Shown here piece after piece: positions 3,061 through 28,064 of a stretch of 64,000 nt of DNA. This DNA is from Candidatus Moanabacter tarae. GTDB taxonomy: Bacteria; Verrucomicrobiota; Verrucomicrobiia; Opitutales; UBA2987. Position 1 is the first letter of the stretch, and each line of letters starts with the position of its first letter. The stretch lies in NCBI GenBank assembly GCA_003226295.1, contig CP029803.1, positions 664,226 to 728,225 on the forward strand. Reading direction: 5' to 3'. Below the pieces are notes generated by a model that was not told the origin of the DNA, did no database searches, and was given only the letters and a program-made list of their open reading frames with translations. The position numbers and the translations under genes are program-made.

Positions 3061-5397
3061 CTAAGATTGAATCCAATCATTTAGACTTTCGTCAGAGGAA
3101 ATGGTCAGCTGGCTTTGGTAAACTGGATCTAGTAGGCTCCTGTAAGAGTCCTGGTTAAAACGTTGACAGTGAAGCAACACTTTCACCTTTTGGCCCGGAG
3201 CGCGTACGAGACGCCCTAGGGCTTGGTTTATCTTGATCAGAGCTGGGATCTGGTAGACTTGGCGAAAGGCCTCATTACGAGGTATTTCGGAGAGTGCTTT
3301 CATTCGAAATTTTTGGACTATATTCACTTCTGGGAGGGCTGGCCCGATTATCATAGCATGAGATACCCGCCCGCCCAATAGATCAATGCTTTCAGAATAC
3401 GAACTGCCAATAACGAGAAGAAGAAGATCGGAATGTGAAAGGTTTTTTTTGAGAAAATGCTCTCGATCCAAGAGTTCTCCTTTTCTCGGCTGAAGAGCGA
3501 TACGAAGGTGGGGGAATTTTAAGTTGATAAGTTTGGATATAGAGTTGGCATATTGATAGGAACTAAAAAAGAGTACTACTGGCGTGGTGGATTCTCCGCA
3601 CATTGCCGAAGCAGTGGCAGCTGTGGTAAAGTAGTATAGATTGCGGCTCTGATAGCTCGTATTTACTCGTAAGTCGGTTGCTACGTCGTAAGATTTTTTC
3701 CGCCAGGGAGCTTTGGCCTGGAGATATGTAGAATCTTCCGGATTGATTTGGCAAAGCCCATAAAAATAATTTTTAGGAGAGAGGGTTGCAGACATCAGAA
3801 CAACTTTTGAAAAACGTTCCAGAGTGTTCGCGATTTGTAAAGGAGCTCCAAGACAGGAGAGGTAAATAAAATCCAGTCCAGTTGACCAAATTAACCGGCT
3901 TAGGGAATCGTCATTTAAGAATTCTAGGATTTCAAAGTAGTGCCAGAGTTCGTCGCGGGTGTTTTTTGATAGGAGGTCTACAGGTGGAGGGGAATATTGC
4001 AGGCTCTCAATGATATTCTCAATCAGCACGACAAGTTCGTATTGCAAGTCGGTATTCAATTCTCCTGGTTCTTGGATTGAGTTGAGGAAATAGATTAGTT
4101 CCGAGTAAGATCGAAGCAGATTGGAACTAGCGTTGGAGAACTTAAGTTCGCTTTCCGATCGCTCAACTGCCTGTCGGGAAAGAGAATGGGAGAGAGAATC
4201 GGTCACTCTGGTGGGAAGGTTATGTGCTTCATCAACGACAAGGAGGGTAGAGGCCGGATCAAATCCTGGTATATGGAATAGAAGGCTCTGGTTTGGAGGT
4301 CCAAATAGGTAATTGTAGTCGGCTACTATAAAATCTGCAAAAGGCAGAAGAGATCGGGTGATTTCATAGGGGCAGATTCCTGTTTCTCGACCAAGACTCT
4401 TTATCTGTTCCAGCGATATGGTTCCGTTTTGGAATAGAGAGATCGGACAAATGTTCGCTGCAGCCCATCGATCGGTGATGTTTTCCCTACAGGTAAGGCC
4501 ATCACCGCAAGTGTGCCGGGGTGAGGAAATCCTGTGTTCGATGCGGTTGCGGATTTGAAGATAGGATAAATCTTTTCTTCCACTTAGCATCTCTTCCAGT
4601 TGGCGGACAATTTGAAGTTGGCCAGTCGATTTTCCAGTAACAAACACAACCCTTTCATGGGTCCGTCGACGGAGACTATCAAGAGACCGCTCGAGAACTA
4701 GGCCTGTTTTTCCGAAGCCGGTTGGCGCCTCAAAAATGAGTAACTCCGGGTTTTCCCATAGGTCGGCCAACCGATCACAAGTCTCTTTTTGGCCCTGGCG
4801 TAATTTAGGAAATGGTTTCCTGTAATTTAGTTTCTCCAATCTTTGGTGGGAATTCCAACGTTGATTCAGGAACCAATGGATGTTCTCTAATTGATGATTA
4901 ACAATTGCATGCGATTTTTTGTTGAATGCAACTCGTTGAATAAACCCGGATGAAATGTCTACGAAGAGTAGCTCTGCGGAAAGGTTTCTCGACTCCCATC
5001 GTGGATCTTTTTGGGCAAGAAGAAAATAGACGGATAGTTGAAGAAAATAGGAAGGATAGCTGTCTAGTAGAATCTTATCATTTTGCGGTAAATCTGATCC
5101 AATTGTTTTGACTTCCCGTAAGGTTGAAAATCTTTTTCCAGTCACTAGCTGGTCGATTCTCCCGTGGAGGGAGACGGTCCAGTCGCGATATCTCAAGTCG
5201 CCTTTTATTGGGATTTCGAAAGATGTTTCGGGGAATTCTTCCTGGGCAGTTTTCTGGAGTTCACGGTGCCACTTCTGACCGATTTTAGAGCGTCGGCGTC
5301 CCATGCCCCAGGTAATACGATCAGAAGGACCGATTTTGAATTCGGAGAATTCGGTAACACTAAGTTGAACTTTTCGTTCATTAAGAAATATGCGCAT
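3061..5397 (-). CDS. RecB-like nuclease fused to XPD/DinG-type iron-sulfur helicase
   Basis: This is a 778-residue two-part protein. The N-terminal part (about residues 60-130) shows PD-(D/E)XK nuclease motifs: GRID (Asp82), REVK (Glu95, Lys97) and QLSVY (Gln120-Tyr124), the QxxxY signature of RecB/AddB/Cas4-type nucleases. The rest is a superfamily 2 helicase: Walker A EAPTGFGKT (223-231), DEAH at 389-392 and motif VI QALGRLVR from 725. Cysteines 297, 303, 317 and 342 lie between Walker A and DEAH, where XPD and DinG bind a 4Fe-4S cluster. A role in processing branched or damaged DNA is inferred. It sits 157 nt downstream of recO, which supports a repair role. Confidence 0.85.
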   Translation of the reverse strand: MRIFLNERKVQLSVTEFSEFKIGPSDRITWGMGRRRSKIGQKWHRELQKTAQEEFPETSFEIPIKGDLRYRDWTVSLHGRIDQLVTGKRFSTLREVKTIGSDLPQNDKILLDSYPSYFLQLSVYFLLAQKDPRWESRNLSAELLFVDISSGFIQRVAFNKKSHAIVNHQLENIHWFLNQRWNSHQRLEKLNYRKPFPKLRQGQKETCDRLADLWENPELLIFEAPTGFGKTGLVLERSLDSLRRRTHERVVFVTGKSTGQLQIVRQLEEMLSGRKDLSYLQIRNRIEHRISSPRHTCGDGLTCRENITDRWAAANICPISLFQNGTISLEQIKSLGRETGICPYEITRSLLPFADFIVADYNYLFGPPNQSLLFHIPGFDPASTLLVVDEAHNLPTRVTDSLSHSLSRQAVERSESELKFSNASSNLLRSYSELIYFLNSIQEPGELNTDLQYELVVLIENIIESLQYSPPPVDLLSKNTRDELWHYFEILEFLNDDSLSRLIWSTGLDFIYLSCLGAPLQIANTLERFSKVVLMSATLSPKNYFYGLCQINPEDSTYLQAKAPWRKKSYDVATDLRVNTSYQSRNLYYFTTAATASAMCGESTTPVVLFFSSYQYANSISKLINLKFPHLRIALQPRKGELLDREHFLKKNLSHSDLLLLVIGSSYSESIDLLGGRVSHAMIIGPALPEVNIVQKFRMKALSEIPRNEAFRQVYQIPALIKINQALGRLVRAPGQKVKVLLHCQRFNQDSYRSLLDPVYQSQLTISSDESLNDWIQS

Positions 5398-5554
5398 TCA
5401 ACACTTATTTCCAAAGTTTTATGGAGCCTCACGATTCATAGATTTCGCGCAATCTTAGCCTGAATTCTTAATATCAGGCTGCCGAATCAAGTCCTTGGCA
5501 TTATCGCATCAGGTTCAACTGTCTTAAATCCAAAGAATTTCTGTAGTTAAAAAT

Positions 5555-6166
5555 TTAGCCCAGTAGAATTTCAGTGTGTTGGATAACCCATTTTTTAAGA
5601 CTATCTATTAGTGAGTTAGCATCTTCCTCTGAAATTTCCTGGTCATTAAGTGGGCGGCGCAGGAGAGATTGGACCTTTTGGCGTAGGGGATTAGGTAGTT
5701 TGATGCACCAATCCTCTCTTACGGGATAGCCTTCGTCGCGGACGAACAAAAAGAGGGATTTGAAAAAGGTAACTTCTGGGCGTTGGGAGGACTCCCAATG
5801 TCTTAGGGATCCTGCCAGAAGTTGAAAGATGTTTTCATATGATTCTAAGTATAGAAGATTTTGATCCAAGATGTTAGAAAACTCGGAGGCATACAGCAGT
5901 GATTTGTAGCGTTTGGCCAGACCATCGAATCTGCGCAATGTTCGATATTCCCTAACGAACCAGATTTTCCCATTGTGCCGTTGTTCTAGCTCAAGATAGG
6001 CATGGTCAAAAAGTTCAGGAGTGATCCTTAACTGGGATTGGGTAGACATTCTCTTCCGGCAATCAAGGAGTCCTTCTTCACGGGAGAAGAAACGACAACT
6101 TTGGAACGATTCCCCAACCGTTTCTCTCTTAAGAACGTAACCCTCTGTCGAGAGATTATAACCCAT
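5555..6166 (-). CDS. recO: DNA repair protein RecO (short form)
   Basis: This 203-residue protein resembles RecO, which loads RecA in the RecFOR gap-repair pathway. It has an OB-fold-like N-terminus, with a start of the type seen in the family (GYVLKRETVGESFQSCRFFSREEG), then a helical C-terminal part. It is shorter than the usual 230-250 residues and has no CxxC zinc motif in the C-terminal domain. Assignment rests on the N-terminus and on position after ybeY and the DUF502 gene, where recO often occurs. The alternative is an unrelated helical protein. Confidence 0.72.
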   Translation of the reverse strand: MGYNLSTEGYVLKRETVGESFQSCRFFSREEGLLDCRKRMSTQSQLRITPELFDHAYLELEQRHNGKIWFVREYRTLRRFDGLAKRYKSLLYASEFSNILDQNLLYLESYENIFQLLAGSLRHWESSQRPEVTFFKSLFLFVRDEGYPVREDWCIKLPNPLRQKVQSLLRRPLNDQEISEEDANSLIDSLKKWVIQHTEILLG

Positions 6167-20601: not shown

Positions 20602-22293
20602 ATGTCTGCTTTAAAGAAAATGCCGAAGTTTATTGCTGTGCTATTTACTCTTTCCCTATGGAGTAATGATCTTTCAAGTGCTGAAGTAGGAGTTGATCGG
20701 CTTATAGGAGCGGGGAACGAACCGCAAAATTGGATGACCTATTCAGGTACTTACAATGCTTGGCGATACAGTTCTTTAAGTCAGATTAATCAGAGTAATG
20801 TGAAGCAACTTGTTCCCGTATGGGTCTTCCAGACTGGAGTCGTAGACGGAGGATTTTCCTGTACTCCGTTAGTGGTAGATGGAGTAATGTACATAACTAG
20901 CCCATGGAACCGCGTTTTTGCAATTGACGCTGTTACTGGAAAGGAAATTTGGCACTATTATTATCCTGTCCCAGAGGAATTTGGATTGCTTTATGGTCCA
21001 TGGAATCGGGGAGTGGCTTTAGGTCATGGTCTCGTCTTTATGGGAACGATTGATAACCATTTGGTAGCTCTTGATGCTGAGACTGGGGAGGAGGTTTGGA
21101 ATGTAAATATCGAGGATGTTGATCAGTGTGGTTGTAACATTACTGGTGCTCCGCTTGTAGTTAAAGATAAGGTTGTTGTCGGAGTCACTGGTGGTGATTC
21201 GGCCCACCGTGGTTATCTCAACGCTTTTGACGCGAAGACCGGTAAGCGGGCCTGGCGTTTCTGGACTATACCAGCTCCCGGTGAAGAAGGGAGCGATACA
21301 TGGAGTGGCGATAGCTGGAAATATGGAGGAGGAGCGACTTGGCTGACCGGATCATACGATCCCGATCTCAATCTGATTTACTGGGGAGTGGGTAATCCTG
21401 CTGCCGATTTTTACGGAGAAACTCGCAAGGGGTCTAACCTTTACACTGATTCAATCGTAGCACTGGACGCGGACACTGGTGAGCTAAAATGGTACCACCA
21501 ACAGATCCCACATGATGTCTGGGACTGGGATGCTGCCTACGAGTGTGTTCTCATGGATCTGGAGGTCGAAGGGAAAAAACGAAAGCTCCTGATAAATGTT
21601 AACAAGGGAGGCTACACCTGGGTAATTGACCGGACCAATGGTGAGTTTGTCAATGCATGGCCCATCGCTGAGGAGATCAATTGGATCAGTGGAATTGATT
21701 CAGAAGGTAATCTCTTGGGACGATTAGAACCTGCAGTGGGCGAAACGACCCTAATCTGCCCCTCTATAGGAGGGGCTCGCAGTTGGAATCATGCAGCCTA
21801 TAGTCCAAAGACGGGCCTTTTTTACACAACTGCTATTGAATGGTGTCAGGATTTGACGGTTCAAGTAGAGGAACCACGTCCGGGCGAACCCTATTTTGGT
21901 GGTGTCTTTGAGCTCCGTAGGACGCCTCAGGGAGAAGCTTGGAGTCATTTTGATGCCTATGATCCATTGTCCGGGGAAAAACGGTGGAGTTATCGTTCTA
22001 AGTACCCATTGTTGGCATCATCGGTCGCAACCGGAGGAAATCTAGTGTTCACGGGAGACCCGGAGGGAAACTTTATGGCATTCGATGCTGTTGATGGGGA
22101 GAAGCTTTGGAGTTTCAACACTGGATCTGGGCATCGAGGTTCGCCCATTACTTATTCGGTGGATGGAATCCAATTTGTGGCTGTGCCGGTTGGCTGGGGG
22201 TCAGCGGTATCTGGAATTATGTCTCAGATTTGGCCAGAAGTAGAAGATTTCCCTAGTGGCTCCGCTCTTTTTGCATTTGCGCTGGGTAAATGA
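20602..22293 (+). CDS. PQQ-dependent alcohol dehydrogenase, probably lanthanide type
   Basis: This 563-residue periplasmic quinoprotein has a signal peptide (about 1-27) and the eight-bladed propeller with repeated tryptophan-docking motifs such as AIDAVTGKEIWHY and ALDAETGEEVWNV. The probable catalytic Asp308 in PHDVWDWD is followed by Asp310; this Asp-x-Asp pattern marks XoxF, ExaF and PedH enzymes that use lanthanides. Asn265 fits the metal-ligand Asn. At the usual ligand Glu there is Asp199 (TGGDSAHRGY). The vicinal Cys-Cys of methanol dehydrogenases is replaced by LLYGPWNRG; a CGC lies at 176-178. The substrate is unknown. The next gene encodes its likely cytochrome acceptor. Confidence 0.9.
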   Translation: MSALKKMPKFIAVLFTLSLWSNDLSSAEVGVDRLIGAGNEPQNWMTYSGTYNAWRYSSLSQINQSNVKQLVPVWVFQTGVVDGGFSCTPLVVDGVMYITSPWNRVFAIDAVTGKEIWHYYYPVPEEFGLLYGPWNRGVALGHGLVFMGTIDNHLVALDAETGEEVWNVNIEDVDQCGCNITGAPLVVKDKVVVGVTGGDSAHRGYLNAFDAKTGKRAWRFWTIPAPGEEGSDTWSGDSWKYGGGATWLTGSYDPDLNLIYWGVGNPAADFYGETRKGSNLYTDSIVALDADTGELKWYHQQIPHDVWDWDAAYECVLMDLEVEGKKRKLLINVNKGGYTWVIDRTNGEFVNAWPIAEEINWISGIDSEGNLLGRLEPAVGETTLICPSIGGARSWNHAAYSPKTGLFYTTAIEWCQDLTVQVEEPRPGEPYFGGVFELRRTPQGEAWSHFDAYDPLSGEKRWSYRSKYPLLASSVATGGNLVFTGDPEGNFMAFDAVDGEKLWSFNTGSGHRGSPITYSVDGIQFVAVPVGWGSAVSGIMSQIWPEVEDFPSGSALFAFALGK

Positions 22294-22317: not shown

Positions 22318-23286
22318 GTGGGTAAAAGAAGTAGAGATAAGGTTTATTCATCGTATATAAAGTTAGTATTGACTTTATTAATATGGATACCTTTGCAGGC
22401 CAATGGAAGTGAACACAAAGTGTCTCTATCGGATATCGATATAATTAATAAAGGCCGAAAGCTATTCGCTCAAAGCTGTTCTGTTGGCTATTGTCATGGT
22501 AAGGAGGGTCGTGCTGGAAGAGGTCCTCGTCTTCGGGGCAAGACTTGGGATAGGGAATATCTCTACCGGGTGATACTAAAGGGGATTCCGAAGACGGCCA
22601 TGCCTGGCTGGGAGGGTAAGCTAAGTCATGAGGAAATCCTCACCTTGGTTGCCTATATTGGGACTATATCCTCGGTTGGAGGCAACGAACCTGGTGTATC
22701 GAACTCGATTAAGACTGGAGAAAAAACTTTATTCACGAATGGGGTCAAGAATGTTAAAGAAAGATTCAAGTTAGCGGGTAAAATTAACGTAGTTGCTAAA
22801 ACGGCTGCCAAAATCGTCGGTAATTCAGGTCGGGGGAGGGAGCTCTTTTTTAATGTGATGGACGATATGAATTGTGCAGTGTGCCACAGGATTGAAGATA
22901 AGGGGGCCTCTATTGGGTTTGGCCTAATCCGAATCGCCGATAATTCGCCACGTCAGATATTTCGGGATATCGTGCTTCCAAGCCAACGAGTTGAAGAGGC
23001 TGGAAGGCTTTCTTCGCTGGTTATGAAAGATGGTGAGGAGTTTAAGGTTCTGATGGTTGGCGAGAGTCCTACTCGTCTACGAGTCTTTGATATTTCAAGT
23101 TTTCCGCCTGTAACGCGGTCTGTAAAAAAGGAGGAAATCCGCTCCTTGATGGCTACAGGGCGTTCCGCTATGCCCGATTCTTACGCACACCGCTATACCC
23201 TCCAGCAGTTATTAGATCTAGTCGCTTTCATCAAATCAAAAGGAAGTTCGTCCGATTCTTTAGTCACCCTTAGGGATATTCTTTGA
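22318..23286 (+). CDS. Di-heme cytochrome c, likely acceptor for the PQQ dehydrogenase
   Basis: This 322-residue exported protein starts at GTG, 24 nt after the PQQ gene. A hydrophobic signal (about 14-29) ends near QANGS. Two cytochrome domains follow. The first has the variant heme site C54-SVGY-C59-H60 (CX4CH) with candidate axial Met95 in AMPGW. The second has the normal site C186-AV-C189-H190 and a candidate Met in AMPDSYAHRYT. Electron transfer from the quinoprotein to the respiratory chain is inferred from adjacency and exported heme domains. Confidence 0.88.
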   Translation: MGKRSRDKVYSSYIKLVLTLLIWIPLQANGSEHKVSLSDIDIINKGRKLFAQSCSVGYCHGKEGRAGRGPRLRGKTWDREYLYRVILKGIPKTAMPGWEGKLSHEEILTLVAYIGTISSVGGNEPGVSNSIKTGEKTLFTNGVKNVKERFKLAGKINVVAKTAAKIVGNSGRGRELFFNVMDDMNCAVCHRIEDKGASIGFGLIRIADNSPRQIFRDIVLPSQRVEEAGRLSSLVMKDGEEFKVLMVGESPTRLRVFDISSFPPVTRSVKKEEIRSLMATGRSAMPDSYAHRYTLQQLLDLVAFIKSKGSSSDSLVTLRDIL

Positions 23287-23430: not shown

Positions 23431-24390
23431 TTACGTTCCGGATTGTGCACCGGCGATGTCGAGTACAATGGAATATAACGAAGTGTCTCCAGCGATATAA
23501 AGAGTTTTGGCATCTGGCCCTCCAAAACAGCAATTGGCTACCCGTTGTTCGGGAATGAGGATTTTTCCGATTAATTCGCCTTCTGCCGTGTAGCACTGTA
23601 TGCCATCTGCAGCACTTGTCCATAGGTTGCCTTCTACGTCACAACGGAAACCGTCTGAAGTCCCTGGTCGTACCTTTGCGAATTCTCGACCGTTTTCCAC
23701 ATATCGCCCATCCGAGGAGACATTGAATGCCATTAGGTTTTCGGATTTTCCTGTATCGGACACGTAGAGAATATCTTCTCCAGGAGAAAACGCTAGTCCG
23801 TTGGGTCGATCCATACTGTCGACCACAATTTCGAGAGTTCCAGTGACTTCATCAAACCGGTAAACATAACAACCGCTAATTTCTGACTTTCGCTGCCGAC
23901 CTTCGCGATCGGAGAGAATTCCGTAGGGAGGATCTGTGAACCAAATTGTTCCATCTGATTTCACAACTACATCGTTCGGCGAATTTAGACGTTTCCCATT
24001 ATAGCGATCAACAAGGACAGTGAGGGTCCCATCATGTTCAGTACGTAGGATGCAGTGAGGAAGATGTTGTGCGCTGATTAAGCGACCCTCAAGGTCAACA
24101 GTATTGCCGTTAGTGTAATTTGAAGGTTCTTTGAATACGGATGTTTCCCTGCTCGTTAGATTGAATTCTAGCATGCGATTATTCGGTATGTCCGACCATA
24201 TCACAGCATTCCTTTGTGATAGGAAGACAGGGCCCTCCGCCCATTCGGTCCCCCGCCAATGGTGTATTAATTCTGGTTCCTCCGGCAGGAGTTGTCGAAA
24301 ATCGGGATTGTAATACTCTATGCCCTCTCTAAGTTGATTGGCTGTTTTTGTCCTGTCGTGTTGTGGAAAGATCTTTGATTTTGCGATCAT
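23431..24390 (-). CDS. SMP-30/gluconolactonase-family lactonase
   Basis: This 319-residue six-bladed propeller enzyme probably hydrolyses a sugar lactone to the acid. Seen: the metal-ligand Glu in WAEGPVF, Asn in RLNSPNDVVVKSDG and Asp in SDGFRCDVEG, with the family segment IWFTDPPYG. There is no clear signal peptide. It lies opposite to and downstream of the quinoprotein pair, so a link to sugar or alcohol oxidation is possible but unproven. Confidence 0.88.
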   Translation of the reverse strand: MIAKSKIFPQHDRTKTANQLREGIEYYNPDFRQLLPEEPELIHHWRGTEWAEGPVFLSQRNAVIWSDIPNNRMLEFNLTSRETSVFKEPSNYTNGNTVDLEGRLISAQHLPHCILRTEHDGTLTVLVDRYNGKRLNSPNDVVVKSDGTIWFTDPPYGILSDREGRQRKSEISGCYVYRFDEVTGTLEIVVDSMDRPNGLAFSPGEDILYVSDTGKSENLMAFNVSSDGRYVENGREFAKVRPGTSDGFRCDVEGNLWTSAADGIQCYTAEGELIGKILIPEQRVANCCFGGPDAKTLYIAGDTSLYSIVLDIAGAQSGT

Positions 24391-25830: not shown

Positions 25831-26901
25831 ATGCCGTTATTATTTGGCCGCACTTATACCAAACGTGAGCTTCTTGACAAGATTGGAGACATCTCTCAGG
25901 TCGCTCAGGCTCGGCGGGCGGAGCTTGTTGAAGGTAATGAGCGGGGAGCGGACCTCATCGAGATGTTCAACGCCTCGGGACTCTGTCTTTCACTTCTCCC
26001 AGGCAGGGCATTAGACGTTGCCTCAGCTCACTACAAAGGCATGTCTCTCTGTTTTCGCTCTAATACAGGTGACGTCGGTCCGGCCTTTTACGAGCCGCAG
26101 GGTTACGGGTGGATGCGTGGCTTTTTCGGAGGCATGGTCTTAACCTGTGGAATGACCTTTACCGGTCATCCCGAGATTGATCCCGAAGAGGAAAACGAGG
26201 AACTCCCACTGCATGGAAGACTTTCTTTCCTCCCGGCCAAGCAGGTAGTAGCAGACGGAAACTGGGAGGGGGACGATTATATTATTAGGGTAAGAGGAAA
26301 GATGCGAGAGGCTATTCCATTTGGAACCCACCTAGAGCTTACAAGAGAGATTTCAATGGCTTTGGGAGCAAAGAGTTTCCGTATACATGATCGGATTGAG
26401 AATTGTGATGTGAACCGGTCTCCACTAATGTATGTCTACCATTGTAATCCGGGATTCCCCTTACTCGATGAAGGGACGCGTTTGGCCATCGCATCCGAAA
26501 AGACAATCGAGTGGGTGGAGGAAAGAGAAGTTAAAGCTGATACCTATACAACCGCCACTGCTCCTATGGAGAAAATGCACGATGATGTTTATGTCCACCA
26601 GGTCAAAGCGGATTCAGAAGGCAATGCCAACGTAGGTCTAATCAACGACAAATTAGGTTTGGGGCTAAGATGGACATTTCCCAGAGACGAGATTCCGATC
26701 GTTACGCAGTGGCAACATTTTCATCGTGGGACCTACGTTACCGGTATAGAGCCTGGCAATGCCAGTATGCTCGGTCGTGCGAGCAATAGGAGGCATGGAA
26801 CTTTGCAATATATCGAGCCGGAGGAGGTCAAGGAATTCCATTTGGAAATTGGAGTCCTTGATGGAGCCGAGGAAATAAGAAACTTCGAGCGCGAAATTTA
26901 A
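25831..26901 (+). CDS. DUF4432 aldose-epimerase-like protein
   Basis: This 356-residue protein belongs to the galactose-mutarotase-like DUF4432 family. Visible landmarks are PLHGRLSFLPA, YHCNPGFPLLDEG, HRGTYVTGIEPGNA and the His-rich WQHFHRG segment, which could form the sugar-binding site. It has no signal peptide. The start is supported by AAGGA six nt upstream. The enzyme activity of the family is not firmly known; sugar or sugar-acid handling is inferred from the fold and neighbouring dehydrogenases. Confidence 0.85.
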   Translation: MPLLFGRTYTKRELLDKIGDISQVAQARRAELVEGNERGADLIEMFNASGLCLSLLPGRALDVASAHYKGMSLCFRSNTGDVGPAFYEPQGYGWMRGFFGGMVLTCGMTFTGHPEIDPEEENEELPLHGRLSFLPAKQVVADGNWEGDDYIIRVRGKMREAIPFGTHLELTREISMALGAKSFRIHDRIENCDVNRSPLMYVYHCNPGFPLLDEGTRLAIASEKTIEWVEEREVKADTYTTATAPMEKMHDDVYVHQVKADSEGNANVGLINDKLGLGLRWTFPRDEIPIVTQWQHFHRGTYVTGIEPGNASMLGRASNRRHGTLQYIEPEEVKEFHLEIGVLDGAEEIRNFEREI

Positions 26902-27269: not shown

Positions 27270-28064
27270 ATGAAGAAAAACATTCATCTTAATAATAAGA
27301 CCCAAGGAAGAGTTGCAGGTAAAGTGGCTTTGATAACAGGTGCTGCTTCAGGAATTGGAGAGGGAACGGCTTTATTATTCGCTAGAGAGGGGGCGTCCGT
27401 GAGTTTGGTGGATGTGGATGTGGAAAATGGGAGGCGAGTCCTAGCCCAGATTCAAGATGAGGGAGGCCGGGCAATATTCGTGAAGGCAGATGTTGGCAAG
27501 AGTCCTCAAGTGAGAAGGATGATAGAACGTACTGAGAAAGAATTTGGGCGTATTGATTTTATTCACAATAACGCTATCTGGTATAAAAATGGTCCGGCGA
27601 CAGAGCTAGAGGAAAAGGATTGGGATCGAACCCTCGATGTCGGTTTGAAGGCTATCTATTTAAGCGCGAAATTTGGTATTCCTGTAATGCGTAAGAATGG
27701 GGGGGGGGCGATTGTCAATACCGGATCAGTACACTCAATGGTTAGTTTTCATGAACACACTGCATATGACACGGCTAAGGCAGGAATCCTAGGTTTGACT
27801 AGAATTCTTTCCCTCGACTACGGACCTGATATTCGAGTCAATGCAGTACTGCCAGGAGCGATTCTCACTCCTCTCTGGAGGTCTATGTCTCCAAAGGAAC
27901 TCCGGCAATCCAAGAAACAGTTTTCAGAAATGGTACCGGCTAAAAGATTAGGTACCGTCGAAGACGTGGCAAACGCAGTATTGTTTCTCGCTTCCGATGA
28001 GGCCGCATTTATTACCGGTACTTCTTTGGCTGTAGATGGAGGGCTTCTCGCTCGTACTATGTAA
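27270..28064 (+). CDS. Short-chain dehydrogenase/reductase
   Basis: This 264-residue classical SDR has the cofactor motif TGAASGIG (about 24-31), NNA of the second motif, the catalytic Ser in NTGSVHSM and YDTAKAG (YxxxK). Asp at the end of the second strand (LVDVDVENG) suggests NAD preference. The substrate is unknown. A run of ten G (27699-27708) encodes Gly-Gly-Gly plus the start of Ala in the NGGGAIVNTGS segment; a one-base slip there would break the gene. No ribosome site is obvious. Confidence 0.92.
   Translation: MKKNIHLNNKTQGRVAGKVALITGAASGIGEGTALLFAREGASVSLVDVDVENGRRVLAQIQDEGGRAIFVKADVGKSPQVRRMIERTEKEFGRIDFIHNNAIWYKNGPATELEEKDWDRTLDVGLKAIYLSAKFGIPVMRKNGGGAIVNTGSVHSMVSFHEHTAYDTAKAGILGLTRILSLDYGPDIRVNAVLPGAILTPLWRSMSPKELRQSKKQFSEMVPAKRLGTVEDVANAVLFLASDEAAFITGTSLAVDGGLLARTM

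Follow-up and report, generated by a model that had tools for sequence, protein, structure and literature searches.

A PQQ-dependent alcohol dehydrogenase that has lost the vicinal Cys-Cys and carries a Cys-Gly-Cys (CGC) invariant in its clade was found in the window (the whole 64,000-nucleotide stretch analysed) beside a diheme cytochrome c whose first haem site reads CX4CH; this pairing of the CGC dehydrogenase with the adjacent CX4CH cytochrome is the strongest feature observed. The preferred reading, to which a probability of about 45% is assigned, is that of a PQQ enzyme with a lanthanide-capable metal site, whose electron exit would have been rebuilt jointly with a cytochrome of its own. 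The features on which this reading is based are located in Table 1.

Table 1. Position of the dehydrogenase, its partner cytochrome and their diagnostic residues within the window.
Feature	Position	Strand	Basis
PQQ-dependent alcohol dehydrogenase, CGC clade	20602..22293	+	TIGR03075 above cut-off, alignment, tree
Leu130-Tyr131 in place of vicinal Cys-Cys	20989..20994	+	aligned to 4MAE C104/C105
Cys176-Gly177-Cys178, clade-specific pair	21127..21135	+	40/40 clade rows, 0/54 others
Asp199 at metal-binding Glu position	21196..21198	+	alignment; Asp in 37/40, Glu in 3/40 clade rows
His202, clade-specific, three residues past Asp199	21205..21207	+	40/40 clade rows, 0/54 others
Asn265, metal-ligand position	21394..21396	+	aligned to 4MAE N256; 40/40 clade rows
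Asp308-Trp309-Asp310 (Asp-x-Asp)	21523..21531	+	aligned to 4MAE D299, D301; both Asp in 40/40 clade rows
Partner diheme cytochrome c, 322 aa	22318..23286	+	PF13442 and TIGR02603 over cut-off; conserved neighbour
Haem site 1, CSVGYCH (CX4CH)	22477..22497	+	motif reading, alignment, clade loci
Met95, putative axial ligand to haem 1	22600..22602	+	Met95-Pro96 invariant; putative ligand role
Haem site 2, CAVCH (CX2CH)	22873..22887	+	motif reading, alignment

The dehydrogenase frame opens with an ATG and encodes 563 aa. Its score against TIGR03075 (PQQ-dependent dehydrogenase, methanol/ethanol family) is 553.8 bits, above the cut-off of 480.05. Two other identities were rejected on the same grounds, namely the acido-empty-quinoprotein group A (TIGR04528), which is the second-best NCBIfam match but stays below its cut-off (455.6 versus 650 bits), and the membrane PQQ glucose dehydrogenase (TIGR03074; 210.2 versus 832.65 bits).

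Inspection of the window protein located D199 within GGDSA, N265 within GNPA, D308 and D310 within VWDWDAA, and both C176 and C178 within DQCGCNI. In the alignment to XoxF SolV (4MAE), E172 corresponds to D199, N256 to N265, D299 to D308, D301 to D310 and R110 to R136, and C104 and C105 fall opposite L130 and Y131, within a stretch (FGLLYGPWNRGVAL) that holds no Cys-Cys. The metal ligands are E172/N256/D299/D301 in 4MAE and E199/N281/D323/D325 in PedH 6ZCW, as listed in PMC11845868. The sequence-only reading had named Asp308 and Asp310, had placed Asp199 at the position of the ligand Glu, and had pointed to the replacement of the vicinal Cys-Cys as well as to the CGC at 176-178; all these assignments held up against the alignment and the reading of the residues, with Leu-Tyr facing the 4MAE pair.

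The fold, the Asp-x-Asp, here D308 and D310, and the Asn ligand are common to the window enzyme, XoxF (4MAE, 6OC5, 6DAM) and PedH/ExaF (PDB 6ZCV, 6ZCW); both groups, however, have the Cys-Cys and the Glu ligand, neither of which is found here, and PedH has no CGC. XoxF and ExaF/PedH were rejected as identities for these reasons, and because the trees place the enzyme in a clade separate from XoxF and on a branch other than that of PedH. The membrane glucose dehydrogenase row (L103) resembles the window enzyme in that Asp replaces the ligand Glu, Asp-x-Asp is present and Cys-Cys is absent, but is distant in sequence and without CGC. The sorbose-type enzymes 4MH1 and 4CVB have the same fold and likewise no Cys-Cys in the aligned stretch, but carry Asp-x-Glu in contrast to Asp-x-Asp.

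An AlphaFold2 model of the window enzyme was built from a 39-row alignment (pLDDT 90.4, pTM 0.90), and solved chains, preselected by Foldseek, were ranked against it by VIA-align. PedH 6zcw ranks first (Z 53.5, rmsd 1.7 A, 533 residues, 39% identity); the corresponding Z values are 51.0 for XoxF 6dam, and 46.8 and 48.6 for the sorbose-type 4mh1 and 4cvb. The predicted fold is nearest to that of the lanthanide enzyme PedH.

Relatives were collected by scanning one genome per species, and the best 80 of the 189 loci found were retained. Thirty-eight of the best 80 loci (L005-L041 and L056; 61 to 78% identity) share the features of the window protein and form the clade with it. Thirty-six of the 38 loci are filed under Acidobacteriota, one (L038) under Actinomycetota and one (L018) without phylum, and most come from MAGs. 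A second alignment was prepared by adding five rows (L138-L142), all taken from Acidobacteriota genomes, and leaving out nine broken, partial or very long-branched ones (L015, L035, L040, L041, L047, L053, L072, L076 and L102, the latter from Ketogulonicigenium). On a quick tree computed from this second alignment without the trait columns the clade has SH-aLRT 100, and its sister is L095 (node joining them, 96), a protein encoded at 3809-5605 of its locus on a plasmid of Streptomyces sp. NBC_01483, 45% identical to the window protein and having both Cys-Cys and Glu. In the first tree very long branches lead to the only sorbose-type row, L102, and to that of the glucose dehydrogenase, and these two group together at a distance from the window protein. 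The proposal that the enzyme belongs to a divergent branch agrees with these trees, which place it outside XoxF, MxaF, PedH and the quinohaemoproteins.

As judged from the alignments and trees, this well-supported clade is neither XoxF, ExaF/PedH nor MxaF, and it appears not to be described in the open literature searched, where no paper recognisably dealing with the clade or its cytochrome was found, subscription papers being mostly outside that scope. Four residues of the clade (N152, H202, A312 and Y313) are each present in 40/40 of its rows and in 0/54 others. An ocean survey (Voutsinos 2025; PMC11996626) reports many PQQ dehydrogenases in marine genomes with the Asp-x-Asp that the window enzyme also has, and a sorbose-type group chiefly from Acidobacteria and Gammaproteobacteria; the words "disulfide" and "cysteine" have 0 occurrences in its main text.

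In canonical relatives the vicinal disulfide lies above PQQ and aids the passage of electrons to cytochrome c. Its role in PQQ dehydrogenases has long been debated. The first alignment shows both C176 and C178 in 38 of 39 clade rows, the remaining one (L041) being truncated there, and C176 occurs in none of the 59 other rows; in the second, final alignment both are found in every one of the 40 clade rows and in none of the 54 others. On the quick tree the CGC corresponds to one change. Such invariance fits a putative functional pair. C87 and C315 were also considered as members of a new pair and rejected, Cys being found there in only 8 and 17 of 39 clade rows, respectively. The CGC precedes T181 by three to five residues; T181 aligns with 4MAE T154, which we take to be a PQQ-contacting residue.

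The cytochrome gene starts 24 bases past the stop of the dehydrogenase. An alignment of 25 cytochrome rows revealed that C54, G57, Y58, C59, H60, Met95-Pro96 and the second haem motif are invariant. CX4CH haem sites are known as such in multihaem cytochromes. Partners were searched at all retained loci as same-strand ORFs with at least two haem motifs, within 3.5 kb on either side of the dehydrogenase. At 33 of the 38 clade loci a partner was found, in all 33 cases downstream and with CX4CH first and CX2CH second. A partner was also found at 37 of the 42 non-clade loci, in 32 cases upstream and in 5 downstream, with CX2CH at both sites in 37/37. The gene order thus differs between the two sets, the cytochrome being mostly upstream (32/37) in L042-L084 versus always downstream (33/33) in L005-L041 and L056. 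In three of the clade loci devoid of a partner (L008, L018, L040) the contig ends at or shortly past the dehydrogenase; in the other two (L005, L016) downstream sequence is present and contains no haem motif.

The association was further evaluated by using DNA patterns for CGCNIT and C-x-x-G-Y-C-H-G on an even sample of 396 genomes from the phylum to which G002 belongs. The first pattern matched in 10 genomes, against 2 for its reversed control, and the second in 15, against 11. Since the reversed controls also match, many single pattern matches are due to chance, and the frames were hence read. On this reading, 8 of the 10 CGC matches are real dehydrogenases, the other two (G542, G630) being chance, and 8 of the 15 haem-pattern matches are real diheme cytochromes, 7 being chance. 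All 8 real C-x-x-G-Y-C-H-G cytochromes are located on the same contig as a CGC dehydrogenase, within about 4.2 kb. The dehydrogenases of G036 and G301 read CGCNVT and fall outside the CGCNIT pattern. Of the real CGC dehydrogenases in this test (n=10), 8 have the cytochrome beside them; in G012 (L018) the contig ends, and in G578 the 7 kb read contain no such cytochrome. Half of the test is new, since five of these genomes (G002, G012, G013, G026, G028) already belonged to the set analysed above. The haem pattern covers only CX4CH with G-Y, and other CX4CH cytochromes escape it. In addition, CGC and CX4CH may each date from one ancestor, and the co-occurrences are therefore not independent events.

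The loss of Cys-Cys, the fixation of CGC and the changed haem site 1 are most simply accounted for by one rebuilt electron exit. In the mechanism envisaged, the enzyme, probably periplasmic, would oxidise an alcohol or polyol by means of presumably bound PQQ, probably imported from outside, with the metal held by D199, N265, D308 and D310. In place of the vicinal disulfide, lost in the clade, the invariant CGC pair, which may form a disulfide, stands a few residues before T181. Electrons would be handed to the dedicated diheme cytochrome, whose first haem would be attached via CX4CH, CGC and CX4CH thereby possibly lying in one electron path. Evidence against a rebuilt exit is provided by the positions of 4MAE E55, R326 and N327, which are kept by most other rows and altered in the clade, and may also be seen in the possible single-ancestor origin of both motifs and in the lack of a cytochrome at L005, L016 and G578.

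The same features might alternatively mark an ordinary PQQ dehydrogenase lineage, in which the disulfide was merely lost, the CGC is a structural disulfide of a loop or consists of free thiols, and CX4CH is a neutral change co-inherited in the operon. We consider this possible, with the odds against it. Cys-Cys is absent in 24 of the 54 non-clade rows as well, through at least four changes on the tree, and also in the aligned stretch of the solved sorbose-type 4mh1 and 4cvb, and CGC and CX4CH can both be one-time events; nevertheless, a neutral pair would be expected to decay somewhere, whereas both cysteines are invariant in 40/40 rows, and non-clade relatives without Cys-Cys retain CX2CH cytochromes. 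A more specific form of the rebuilt exit would make the CGC a redox-active stand-in for the vicinal disulfide, leading from the PQQ-lanthanide centre to the co-changed CX4CH haem, and the clade a second exit design used mostly by PQQ scavengers; this more demanding proposal is regarded as unlikely.

According to the alignments, Arg136 and the position of Trp247 are retained in the window enzyme, as are the metal-ligand positions, and the Asp-x-Asp found throughout the clade argues for a site that would be lanthanide-capable; the identity of the metal itself we infer. Asp199 was rejected as the key novelty: because Glu occupies this position in 3/40 clade rows it does not define the clade, and at least seven changes occurred there over the tree. 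A group of related Acidobacteriota propellers (L063, L064, L069, L073, L079, L080, L084) have Gly at the Glu position and no Cys-Cys, and keep Asp-x-Asp.

The metal could also be Ca2+ or Mg2+ and not a lanthanide, which would be compatible with either reading of the cysteines and is judged rather unlikely. The change from Glu to Asp alters one metal ligand, and the glucose dehydrogenase row L103 shows the same three traits (Asp for Glu, Asp-x-Asp, Cys-Cys lacking) and represents a family described as able to complex Ca, Mg, Zn and Sr (PMC11996626), so that Asp-x-Asp alone is no proof of lanthanide use. On the other hand, all 40 clade rows have Asp-x-Asp, as do XoxF and PedH, lanthanide enzymes of solved structure, and a XoxF is encoded in the same genome, which makes the use of lanthanides by the bacterium plausible.

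This second enzyme (L002), which branches with XoxF, belongs to a cluster at about G000:C1:2454108-2462144 (L149 4109-12145), in which XoxF is accompanied by a MoxJ-type protein and a PQQ-associated beta-propeller (above the cut-offs of TIGR03871 and TIGR03866, respectively), a cytochrome, a substrate-binding protein and a TonB receptor. Among solved chains only two colicin I receptor sequences matched this receptor at E <= 1e-8; it may serve for the uptake of PQQ or of a lanthanide chelate (lanthanophore).

Genes for PQQ synthesis were sought in the window genome, which is a single contig, 98.2% complete. The profile search gave no match for pqqC, in a run in which the controls were silent too, the same model matching in related genomes; pqqB had no match at E <= 1e-20, and pqqE stayed far under its cut-off (72 bits versus 381). 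Among the 38 clade genomes, the window's included, mostly MAGs of unstated completeness, pqqE is over cut-off in three (G008, G025 and G048), and pqqB is over cut-off in the same three of the 14 genomes searched. pqqC, searched in 48 genomes (31 clade, 17 non-clade), matches in 5 and is over cut-off in 3, two of which are the clade genomes G008 and G025. Given the XoxF cluster and the lack of detected PQQ synthesis genes, scavenging is likely, and the bacterium very probably uses PQQ not of its own making. PQQ scavenging is widespread according to PMC12124388, which mentions 17 PqqU-bearing Acidobacteria without PQQ biosynthesis genes.

That the enzyme uses no PQQ at all, being an emptied or otherwise loaded propeller like those of NCBI's acido-empty-quinoprotein group, is very improbable, since the second rank of TIGR04528, the scarcity of pqqE in the clade genomes and the alteration of several pocket positions are offset by a score under the TIGR04528 cut-off in a model against which the genome's own XoxF scores 351, by the pqqB and pqqE over cut-off in G008, G025 and G048, and by the retained metal ligands, Trp247 and Arg136.

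The gene is probably foreign to its present host. In a sample of 236 genomes of the window's class only three give a match at E <= 1e-120, namely the window genome itself and two others at 44-45% identity; in the family of the window genome (4 genomes) the gene is found in its own, and one other has a 40% relative only. In the tree the window protein falls within a set of proteins from Acidobacteriota MAGs, together with L006-L010 (node 97). Horizontal transfer from this Acidobacteriota group is the likely origin suggested by the phylogeny.

Spurious frames in GC-rich contigs overwhelmed the clustering of the neighbouring genes. In most loci of a 19-locus cluster a gene is located directly 5' of the dehydrogenase (e.g. 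L025 7271-7963), presumably resembling a DJ-1/PfpI protein, and is absent from the window. Downstream, the window contains genes for a SMP-30/gluconolactonase (23431-24390), a DUF4432 protein (25831-26901) and a SDR (27270-28064); the search of the 38 clade loci yielded no homologue of the first two. The window dehydrogenase might conceivably act on a sugar or polyol.

By dropping the Cys-Cys, fixing another pair and changing a haem site, the clade offers a natural experiment on the role of the vicinal disulfide, which can be tested by mutation. It also advises caution, in that Asp-x-Asp by itself should not be taken as proof of lanthanide use. Electron transfer between dehydrogenase and cytochrome may be of an unfamiliar kind.
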